Shown: positions 39,983 through 42,457 of the stretch, piece after piece | Layout: each line of letters opens with the position of its first letter | Numbering within the stretch: position 1 is the first letter of the stretch | Source of the DNA: Cordylochernes scorpioides | Lineage: Eukaryota; Arthropoda; Arachnida; Pseudoscorpiones; Chernetidae | Direction: 5' to 3' | DNA: 64,000 bases | NCBI GenBank assembly: GCA_030710605.1 | Contig: CP092877.1 | Span: 558,001 to 622,000 of the forward strand | Position numbers and translations under genes: made by a program | Notes under the pieces: generated by a model | The model's database searches: none | Told to the model about the DNA's origin: nothing | What the model saw: the letters and a program-made list of their open reading frames with translations, nothing else

Positions 39983-42457
39983 ATGCCCTCAAGAAGGAAT
40001 CGCCGACCATCCCAAACCCCTCCAGAGAACCCTGCCTCGCCGACCAGCACCGACATCCTCAGGTCCATAGCCGCACTGTTGCAGCAGATGGCTACTCGGA
40101 ATCCGACACCGACAGTCCCATTAGGAGCTCCTCCTCACCACGCCACAAAAATCATCCAGCTTCCTAAACTGGCTTCCCCGGAGGAGTTAACGATGTCTTG
40201 TTTCCGCGATTGGAAACAACGTTGGAACGACTACGTGGACGCCCAACAAGTAGCCACCTTCCCGCTATCCACACAGCAAGTGACTTTGCGTGCCGCCCTC
40301 CATTCCGAATGGACCATCCTTTGGCAATCAGGCCGCCTTCATATTTCTACCACCACCACCCTCGATGAAGCCGTGAATGCTCTCGAGTCCTACCTACGCA
40401 AGAAGCGAAACCCCCTCCTTGATCGGCAAGATTTTCATCGTAGGGACCAACAAACCGGAGAATCGGTGGATCGCTACTTCGCAGCCCTTAAAGCTCTTGA
40501 TGACTCGTGTGCACATGAGCTGGATTTTAAGTGCAGCACATGCGGCGACCCGTGTATTACAATATGCACAAAAAGAGCTTGTGGGAAAACGTTTGCCCTT
40601 GCTGGCTATCAACACCAACTCCGTATCCGTGACAGGTTAATATGTGGCCTGTTTGATAAAGACCTCCAACGAAAAGTACTGGCGGAGCAGTATAATTCCG
40701 ACCTCTCCCTGGACCGAGTCCTCTCAATTTGTCTCGCACATGAGAGTGCTACCGCCGTGGGCGCGACTCTTTCACCCTCCCCAACCACCTCCCCCGAAGC
40801 CTTCATTGCAACCAGACGTGCACCATCAACCTACAAGCATCAACAAGCCAGCTCGTCTGAAACCTCACCTAAGGCCAACCGTTTCTTTCAGAAACCCTAT
40901 GATCCTAACGACCCCTGCTCCGGATGTGGGGCTAACCCAAGACACCGCCGTGACCAGTGCCCAGCAAAAGACATAGAGTGTAACAAATGCGGCATCACCG
41001 GGCATTACGGAAGGGTTTGCCGACAACTGAAACGGAAACCCACAACCAAACCTAATATCCCGCCACCCGCAACCAGAAACAATCAGTCCCAACCAGGAAC
41101 CTCAAACACAGTTGTTGCAGCTGGAGTACGCAACGAACTCATAACCATTCCGACCGATATCAACCATAAGTTACACCAAATCCGTTGGCTGGCGGACCCG
41201 GGGTCAGATCTGGATCTAATCCCAGAATCAGAATTCCTGTTACTGGATGAGCAGACCCGATCAGCACTCAACCCGAAGAACGTCCCTTGCGTAGGAGCCA
41301 ACGGCATCAGCTTAAGTCCTTGTGGATCGTTCGTCGCGGCACTGCATCTCAACGGGAAAACATACAGTACTACCGTTGGAGTCTGCAAGCACCTGAACGC
41401 CCCTCTCTTGAGCAAGTGCGGATGCAAAGCCTTAGGACTTCTGCCGGATAACTGGCCCCATTCAATGATCGTCAATGCCATAACCAACGGACAAGTTCTA
41501 ACGTTCCCGCCGACCCCGGTGAGAGCCAATGAGATCGATAAGCAGTCTATCCTTACCCATTATGCTAGAGCGTTCGACGACACAGTGTTAAAACCCATGC
41601 AAGGACCCCCCATGTCTATCGAACTAGTTGAAGATGCCGTTCCTTGCAAACGCTACCGGGCATACAACGTTCCCTTTCACTGGAGAGACCCCGTCAAAAC
41701 TCAACTCGATACCATGTTGGCGAAAGGGATAATCGAACAGGTACCCGTCGGCGAAGCCATCGATTGGTGCCATCCTATGGTAGTCGTCCCGAAAAAAGGC
41801 TCATCACAAGTCACTATACCAAATGATCTCGCCGGTGCCATCATTGGGAAAGGTGGTCAACGCATCAGGAAGATCCGGCGCGAGTCTGGTGCGGGGATCA
41901 CCATAGATGAGTCTCAACCTGGTAGCAACGAACGGGTCATCACCACCTCTGGCACGCCCCAGCAGATCCAGATGGCCCAGTACCTCTTGCAGCAAAATGT
42001 AAGAGAACATTCCTTCCGGAAGCGATACAATCGCAACGCCAAGCCACTCTCACATTTAGAAGTGGGAGCAATAGTCCTTGTCCAGGATCACCGCACAAAA
42101 CATTGGACCCTCCTTGCTGAGGTTCTCGAACAACTTCCACGCGGTCGCAGCTACCTCATCCGGACCGACGCCGGACGCCTTCTTCGCCGTAATCGAAGAT
42201 TCTTACGACCTTTCGTGCCTCCACCGTACACCACCCCACCCAACTCAGCTCAACATCAGCAGACCTTATCCCCTCGAACCCGAGAACCGAACCCGCGTTA
42301 TAGCAACTACGTTGGATCGGTCCCAAGTCCCAATCTCCAGGGGGGGCATGAGATAAGAGGCAGCCAGCGGGCGACGCTGGCATCCTGGGACGCTGGCTGG
42401 CCAGCCGGCCTGCGCGCGCACCGGGGGCTGCGCGCGCACTTTTCGAACACCGCCTGA
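39983..42457 (+). CDS. Gag-protease-(RT start)-KH domain-(integrase tail) fusion polyprotein, 824 aa
   Basis: Starts at AAGATGC, 70 bp after the 5' LTR. Residues ~70-260: Gag-like (FRDWKQRWNDY; RIRDRLICGLFDKDLQRKVLAE). ~308-348: two zinc-knuckle-like Cys clusters (CSGCG...C; CNKCGITGHYGRVC). ~402-415: aspartic protease site in WLADPGSDLDLIP (D-P-G-S in place of the usual D-T/S-G). ~530-609: only the N-terminal approach to RT (VKTQLDTMLAKGIIEQVP...HPMVVVPKKGSSQ). Residues 610-673: a KH domain starting VTIPNDLAGAIIGKGGQRI, GXXG loop G622-K-G-G625, very close to KH3 of hnRNP K. ~695-745: the integrase C-terminal module (VGAIVLVQDHRTKHW...LLRRNRRFLRPF). The RT, RNase H and integrase catalytic cores are absent. 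The last ~36 residues are encoded in the 3' LTR. Codon frame is uninterrupted throughout. Product: a Gag particle protein with an added sequence-specific RNA-binding module, by inference. Confidence 0.92.
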   Translation: MPSRRNRRPSQTPPENPASPTSTDILRSIAALLQQMATRNPTPTVPLGAPPHHATKIIQLPKLASPEELTMSCFRDWKQRWNDYVDAQQVATFPLSTQQVTLRAALHSEWTILWQSGRLHISTTTTLDEAVNALESYLRKKRNPLLDRQDFHRRDQQTGESVDRYFAALKALDDSCAHELDFKCSTCGDPCITICTKRACGKTFALAGYQHQLRIRDRLICGLFDKDLQRKVLAEQYNSDLSLDRVLSICLAHESATAVGATLSPSPTTSPEAFIATRRAPSTYKHQQASSSETSPKANRFFQKPYDPNDPCSGCGANPRHRRDQCPAKDIECNKCGITGHYGRVCRQLKRKPTTKPNIPPPATRNNQSQPGTSNTVVAAGVRNELITIPTDINHKLHQIRWLADPGSDLDLIPESEFLLLDEQTRSALNPKNVPCVGANGISLSPCGSFVAALHLNGKTYSTTVGVCKHLNAPLLSKCGCKALGLLPDNWPHSMIVNAITNGQVLTFPPTPVRANEIDKQSILTHYARAFDDTVLKPMQGPPMSIELVEDAVPCKRYRAYNVPFHWRDPVKTQLDTMLAKGIIEQVPVGEAIDWCHPMVVVPKKGSSQVTIPNDLAGAIIGKGGQRIRKIRRESGAGITIDESQPGSNERVITTSGTPQQIQMAQYLLQQNVREHSFRKRYNRNAKPLSHLEVGAIVLVQDHRTKHWTLLAEVLEQLPRGRSYLIRTDAGRLLRRNRRFLRPFVPPPYTTPPNSAQHQQTLSPRTREPNPRYSNYVGSVPSPNLQGGHEIRGSQRATLASWDAGWPAGLRAHRGLRAHFSNTA
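42340..42348 (+). other. Polypurine tract of the KH-carrying element
   Basis: The run AGGGGGGG then CA sits immediately before TGAGATAAG of the right LTR. It lies within the coding frame, so the ORF reads through it into the LTR. Confidence 0.75.

Follow-up and report, generated by a model that had tools for sequence, protein, structure and literature searches.

The window analysed here, a 64-kb stretch of the genome of the pseudoscorpion Cordylochernes scorpioides (C15:558001-622000, contig CP092877.1), holds a 3,058-bp long terminal repeat (LTR) retrotransposon at positions 39602-42659, in which the third KH domain (KH3) of the host protein hnRNP K takes the place of reverse transcriptase (RT), RNase H, and integrase. 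This hybrid element occurs once within the window, and its KH junction recurs at 350 places in the genome searched (2.62 Gb in 24 contigs). The family very probably originated in one template-switching event between a Ty3/Gypsy-type parent element and hnRNP K mRNA, followed by mobilisation in trans as a non-autonomous element.

A host KH domain in the open frame of an LTR element

The element is inserted within a 66-bp satellite, with GCCAT as its target duplication, and carries two 311-bp LTRs with TG...CA ends that are identical (311/311 bp). A preliminary description, made from the sequence alone, had reported an unbroken 824-residue frame, identical LTRs, and a perfect target duplication, all of which we confirmed (Table 1). 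The same description had read the frame as Gag, zinc knuckle, and protease, then the first residues of RT, a KH domain, and a return to the integrase C-terminal tail. The names Gag and protease are tentative, taken from motif reading and from the layout of the parent; the zinc knuckle gives a weak Pfam zf-CCHC match of 14.1 bits, under the cut-off of 20.8, and the Pfam scan of the window frame found no further match, and no protease family, in the Gag and protease stretches. The Pfam RVT_1 match starts about three codons 5′ of position 41798, and the window element itself is without RT, RNase H, and integrase domains by Pfam. The parental equivalent of the tail lies downstream of the integrase core. 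As a correction to the first description, the frame terminates within the 3′ LTR, and its final ~35 codons are LTR sequence. Among solved structures, the RT start gave chance-level matches only (best E 0.63) and the tail gave none. Searches of prokaryotic and viral contig collections found no relatives of the Gag-RT part or the KH segment, and a search of the viral collection found none of the LTR start.

The KH domain of the window frame matches Pfam KH_1 with an E-value of 3.1e-19. The best four solved-structure matches to the KH segment are all chains named hnRNP K (E 9.7e-25 to 1.8e-23); PDB entries 1zzi and 1j5k are, we assume, its KH3. The host gene likewise places the captured segment in the last KH domain of hnRNP K, and the GXXG loop, GKGG, is intact, so that structure matches and host gene agree with the initial assignment to hnRNP K KH3. 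An NCBIfam scan returned only weak bacterial KH matches, far under the cut-offs. The host-derived part of the frame comprises residues 606-677, perhaps extending to 680 (position 42022), and is thus slightly wider than the limits of 610-673 first proposed.

The donor is a spliced hnRNP K transcript

The donor locus was found on C9 with a human KH2 query, which yielded a pair of short exon matches in C9:99229908-99230188 (59% across 34 residues, 43% across 44), weak singly (E 0.015 and 0.013). Read by eye, the locus contains KH1-like and KH2 pieces and an hnRNP K-like linker, and the KH3 exons and a stop codon lie downstream. Specifically, the gene runs from exon A, ending CCAAATGAT, through a 57-bp intron (GTAAG...CGCAG), exon B, and a 288-bp intron (GTAAG...TTGCAG) to exon C. 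The captured 216 nt consist of 30 nt of exon A, the whole of exon B (170 nt), and 16 nt from the start of exon C; both introns are absent from the element to the base, and 215 of the 216 bases are identical to spliced hnRNP K. The exact removal of two introns indicates that the donor was processed host hnRNP K mRNA, in agreement with the earlier proposal of template switching onto host mRNA.

The single mismatch of the window copy, T to C at 41946, changes Ile to Thr at KH position 48 and is present in 14 of 53 sampled copies; it is derived, as shown by the 13 copies with a 216/216 match to the host. In this sample, which is non-random in that it includes the duplicated locus L022 and some copies selected by similarity to the window or to human KH3, 13 copies are identical to the spliced host sequence, 33 have one difference (including the 14 with the 41946 change), three have two, one has three, and three are partial and uncounted.

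A human KH1-KH2 query led only to a pair of divergent hnRNP K-like genes without introns, which lie 33 kb apart, look similar by eye (L059 and L060, at C13:83509770 and C13:83542932), and are perhaps retained old retrocopies. They were ruled out as donor by eye, their sequence being far from the KH3 of the element.

The parent element and the switch points

Parent candidates were obtained by comparing pattern lists for places that bear the tail and lack the KH domain. One of them, L081 (C1:39960400-39964450), matches the hybrid at 99.1% identity across 1,788 nt of the Gag, protease, and RT-start part and at 98.9% across 94 nt of the tail; the two matching parts are 2,169 nt apart. By Pfam, the intervening sequence contains RVT_1 (3.8e-12), RT_RNaseH_2 (1e-20), Integrase_H2C2 (1.8e-14), and rve (1.1e-16), and this RT-RNase H-integrase order assigns the parent family to the Ty3/Gypsy type. 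The parent thus holds RT, RNase H, and integrase where the hybrid holds KH3, which bears out the original claim that most of Pol had been replaced. The parent layout recurs: 69 left-pattern places were listed on C1-C10, and the right pattern follows after 2,168-2,169 bases in 42 of them and at other spacings in 15; no right pattern lies within 4 kb of the remaining 12. The rve profile was uninformative for locating the parent, giving 53,711 first-look candidates, of which 150 were scored.

At the left switch, nine bases, GGCTCATCA, are common to host mRNA, parent, and hybrid, after which the hybrid tracks the host. At the right switch, the hybrid reads GAACATTCC-TTCC-GGAAG-CGATAC, the host GAACATTCC-GGAAG-GAAG, and the parent CCCTC-AAG-CGATAC. 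The simplest reading of the right junction would be a 4-base repeat with a switch inside AAG; the TTCC repeat determines the reading frame of the tail. A longer relative with RT and integrase, for which the preliminary description had advised a search, is thus present, and its junctions with the hybrid fit template switching.

The hybrid is a young, dispersed family

Pattern counts were made genome-wide with at most three mismatches, and the reversed-pattern control gave 0 for each. The tail just right of the junction occurs at 549 places, the KH|tail junction at 350, the parent|tail junction at 201, the spliced exon A|B junction at 340, and the parent sequence spanning the left junction at 158. 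The hybrid therefore outnumbers the parent, by 350 to 201 or 158 depending on the pattern used, and constitutes the amplified family with common KH junctions that had been foreseen. The two tail junctions add up to 551 against 549 tails, which leaves little room for a third large class, although sums of this kind are approximate because the patterns vary in length and position. A 421-bp query across KH and both junctions gave 40 full-length matches scored from 727 first-look candidates, and a human KH3 query gave 150 matches scored from 427 candidates.

Forty copies were fetched, 39 after leaving out L022, and LTR completeness was judged by script. Both LTRs are complete in 28 of the 39, and all 28 have perfect 5-bp target duplications. 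Their LTR pairs differ by 17 substitutions in 8,730 aligned bases (0.19%), in keeping with the very recent transposition claimed at the outset; at assumed substitution rates of 3e-9 to 1e-8 per site per year, the insertions would be about 0.1-0.3 million years old. In 10 of the 28, the two LTRs of a copy differ by gaps: one copy has a gap of 2 bp, eight have gaps of 13-19 bp, and one has a gap of 63 bp. The longer indels, in L021, L023, L024, L027, L029, L034, L056, and L057 (13-19 bp) and L036 (63 bp), accompany 0-2 substitutions and look as if copying had added or removed LTR units or exchanged LTRs.

The 53 aligned copies contain insertions of at most 1 nt, which leaves no room for RT or integrase between Gag and tail in any of them. 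The enzymes must then come from elsewhere, so that movement in trans, as previously suggested, would be a consequence of their absence, with the 99%-identical parent family as the obvious source.

Several loci show further arrangements. The window locus 39375-44393, comprising element and flanks, is repeated 154 kb away at C15:751400-756400 with 99.5% identity over 5 kb; this is a segmental duplication rather than a second insertion, because the flanks are repeated along with the element. KH matches on C8 are evenly spaced (68338373, 68341100, and 68343827; L066-L068; step 2,727 bp), as are parent-type tails on C6 (11133759, 11136635, and 11139511; step 2,876 bp), consistent with tandem elements having common LTRs. 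An inverted pair of KH elements lies 1.3 kb apart on C3 (67582005, plus strand; 67583310, minus strand) and could give a hairpin RNA matching hnRNP K mRNA. The copy L032 (C1:138910000-138915000) has lost most of Gag, with an inner length of 838 bp, and has kept KH and a perfect duplication at its insertion site.

Reading frames and sequence variation

Frames of at least 690 codons surround 92 of the 150 scored KH matches, and frames of at least 800 codons surround 47. Three long deletions recur in separate insertions, and all are multiples of three: 306 nt (eight sampled copies), 252 nt (four), and 36 nt (six). The 306-nt class occurs at 40 places genome-wide (at most two mismatches), and a further 27-nt deletion is restricted to one tandem array. 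The 36-nt deletion is in the tail, while the 306- and 252-nt deletions sit just upstream of KH, so that a frame shift there would spare Gag and lose KH. Short-frame classes were checked for amplified frameshift lineages in short upstream stretches, leaving out the classes of 214, 221, 224, and 227 residues. In the 298-residue class, three of three copies checked have a one-base loss in a C6 run; in the 244-residue class, one of two has an A6 gain and the other two insertions; and in the 257-residue class, both copies have different stop codons.

For nonsynonymous to synonymous (N:S) counts, 7 + 2 window-private variants were set aside. Variants in the Gag-protease part that are found in at least two of 44 copies have an N:S of 21:16, against an expected ratio of about 2.47 (one-sided p 0.043). 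In the tail, N:S is 4:1 for shared variants and 14:11 for singletons.

Probable origin of the hybrid and possible role of the KH domain

In the proposed origin, RT would have departed at the integrase-side tail during reverse transcription of parent RNA, continued on a spliced host hnRNP K mRNA for about 216 nt that encode KH3, and re-joined the parent RNA at the common 9-base stretch near the RT start; since RT copies from the 3′ side, the right switch would have come first. As the outcome, 2.17 kb for RT, RNase H, and integrase gave way to an in-frame KH3. The hybrid encodes its own Gag-protease-KH-tail protein, retains the LTRs and other cis signals, and would spread with the RT and integrase of the parent family acting in trans. 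The donor gene, its splicing, the parent, the junctions, the copy number, and the recency of the insertions are observed directly; the order of the switches and the movement in trans are deduced. An RNA-binding role of KH3 in the element is a reasonable guess, and it is only suggested that KH3 translation was kept because it is useful, for example by adding RNA binding to Gag.

Several observations weigh against this account. The right switch point has just three bases in common and an unexplained 4-base repeat, against nine common bases at the left, and both mobilisation in trans and translation of the fusion are inferred. The frame argument is weakened because most copies of one sampling batch were picked for long frames; three in-frame events at one in three each amount to just 1 in 27; and single-copy indels of at least 5 nt split into four in frame and four out of frame. 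One-base shifts at homopolymers (C5, C6, A6) recur, and therefore frame-broken copies are also numerous. The shared Gag-protease N:S of 21:16 shows no clear difference from that of singletons, 89:43 (Fisher p 0.25), and KH variants are too few for such a comparison (3:1 shared, 5:4 singletons). Furthermore, one study gives TCCC and CCCC as targets of hnRNP K KH3 (PMC9709238), and C-patches in the internal region of the element show no excess over dinucleotide shuffles and are, if anything, rarer (TCCC 17 versus 19.7, CCCC 18 versus 28.2, clusters 0 versus 2.0); the selection of C-rich RNA by the KH domain, raised in the preliminary description, thus finds no support.

An assembly artefact or one-off rearrangement, which would leave a single copy with breakpoints at the KH junctions, can practically be dismissed: the right-hand junction lies at 350 places, the 100 listed ones, all on C1-C5, have 0 mismatches, and each of the 28 complete copies has its own target duplication. 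Recombination at the DNA level, or exon shuffling from the hnRNP K locus, would account for the sequence identity, but hardly for introns of 57 and 288 bp removed to the base, nor for a segment that begins inside exon A with a 9-base match at its left end and ends inside exon C. We reject such a capture as most improbable unless the donor was an intronless hnRNP K copy; the C13 genes are by eye too divergent, and no search for other intronless copies was made.

It is about as likely as not that KH3 is an inert passenger of a hybrid that spread, like other non-autonomous LTR derivatives, because it is short, well transcribed, and equipped with all cis signals, its open frame reflecting no more than youth. 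In a family this young, with 13 of 53 copies still host-identical, open frames need no selection; N:S on KH gives no clear signal, C-patches show no excess, and L032 inserted with a perfect duplication despite the loss of most of Gag. On the other hand, both junctions of the fusion preserve the reading frame in the window copy and the long-frame copies, the amplified deletion lineages upstream of KH (306 and 252 nt) remain in frame with it, and L032 also retained KH, albeit shifted relative to the frame of the original start. A less likely alternative is that the 216-nt stretch acts as nucleic acid, either because small RNAs against the element would hit hnRNP K mRNA and make silencing costly to the host, or because the copies regulate hnRNP K. 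The 340 exon-junction places, the 13 sampled copies identical to host mRNA, and the inverted pair on C3 favour this alternative, which would not alone account for the in-frame deletions; as a precedent, small RNAs against PxyMasc arise from W-linked retrocopies of that gene, whose formation is attributed to LTR template switching (PMC9674220). We also regard as speculative, and rather doubtful, a combination in which KH3 would give the hybrid an edge over the parent in two linked ways, through RNA binding in the particle by the Gag-protease-KH fusion and through a tie between small-RNA silencing and hnRNP K, so that the host could not easily shut the hybrid down; a 216-nt stretch identical or nearly identical to hnRNP K mRNA at about 340 places, with at least one inverted pair, is what such a tie would draw on.

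Other features of the window

A Copia-type RT fragment lies at 546-2524 on the plus strand (RVT_2, E 2.4e-75). Two 512-codon ankyrin-repeat frames on the minus strand, 6474-8009 and 24374-25909, are very alike by eye and probably belong to a local duplication. Arrays of tRNA-Gly- and tRNA-Ser-like units at 27178-28599 and 35221-37632, amid 66-bp and 73-bp satellites, are probably short interspersed element (SINE) repeats. Table 1 gives the features of the hybrid element.

Table 1. Features of the hybrid element, in window coordinates
Feature	Position	Strand	Basis or remark
Target-site duplication, left copy, GCCAT	39597..39601	.	direct repeat flanking the element
5′ LTR, 311 bp, TG...CA	39602..39912	+	identity with 3′ LTR
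Putative primer binding site TGGCGCAGTCG, just after 5′ LTR	39913..39923	+	sequence reading; presumably for tRNA-Ser
Single open frame, 824 residues: Gag, protease, RT start, KH3, integrase-side tail, 3′ LTR read-through	39983..42457	+	
Gag, protease, and RT start	39983..41797	+	99.1% identity with parent over 1,788 nt; parent L081 covers 40023 onward
Left switch point GGCTCATCA, common to host mRNA, parent, and hybrid	41798..41806	+	
Captured hnRNP K mRNA segment (KH3), 216 nt	41798..42013	+	215/216 identical to spliced host gene
Exon-exon junction 1	41827..41828	+	host intron of 57 bp, GT...AG
Exon-exon junction 2	41997..41998	+	host intron of 288 bp (L073:723-1010), GT...AG
Right switch region: 4-nt TTCC repeat followed by host-like GGAAG, with AAG also in parent	42014..42022	+	
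C-terminal tail reaching 3′ LTR; parent equivalent downstream of integrase core	42023..42348	+	98.9% over 94 nt compared (42020-42113)
Putative polypurine tract AGGGGGGG	42339..42346	+	sequence reading
3′ LTR, 311 bp	42349..42659	+	identity with 5′ LTR
Target-site duplication, right copy, GCCAT	42660..42664	.	

Comparison with known systems

Retroviruses and LTR elements pick up host genes, and LTR-mediated retroposition in metazoans was reportedly described by Tan et al. in 2016. Such retroposition, with switches at short shared stretches, is established (PMC5408686, PMC8232201); there, as here, spliced host mRNA is joined to an LTR element by template switching. The hybrid has the corresponding marks, with two donor introns removed and common bases of 9 nt at the left and, more weakly, 3 nt plus TTCC at the right. 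The products there are retrocopies of genes, whereas the present one is an in-frame polyprotein chimera found at about 350 places, more than its parent. In Bs1 of maize, host gene segments likewise stand in the frame of an LTR element; that element is from a plant and took up pieces of three genes, for a membrane ATPase, a xylan endohydrolase, and a beta-1,3-glucanase (PMC13317346). In the present case, one RNA-binding domain replaces RT, RNase H, and integrase, with a donor about 100% and a parent 99% identical. The Pxyfem retrocopies of PxyMasc in Plutella also combine spliced exons with LTR sequence at a short common stretch (ATTT) and are multicopy; they are degenerate, lie antisense in tandem clusters on the W chromosome, and have LTRs that the authors did not identify (PMC9674220). 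The copies described here are dispersed, young, sense, and in frame.

Elements of the TRIM and LARD types are non-autonomous LTR derivatives. Like them, the hybrid is without RT and integrase, has kept its LTRs, has dispersed insertions, and would have been moved in trans; it differs in its coding capacity, which includes an acquired host domain. Its KH3 resembles that of hnRNP K (PDB 1zzi, 1j5k) in its 70-residue domain and GKGG loop, and differs in sitting behind Gag and protease without KH1 and KH2. No description of a KH domain in an LTR element was found among the titles and abstract openings of the open-licence papers searched, which does not imply absence elsewhere.

The mechanism is already known; the unusual part is an in-frame, high-copy fusion whose donor and parent survive nearly identical. 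To our knowledge, it is rare for donor, parent, and chimera to be preserved together in such a state. In this case, every step can be followed at single-base resolution, from the spliced donor exons and the bases of the left switch to the lost genes of the parent and the count of offspring. The system makes it testable whether the success of a mobile element changes when its Gag bears an acquired RNA-binding domain or when it includes sequence identical to a host mRNA.

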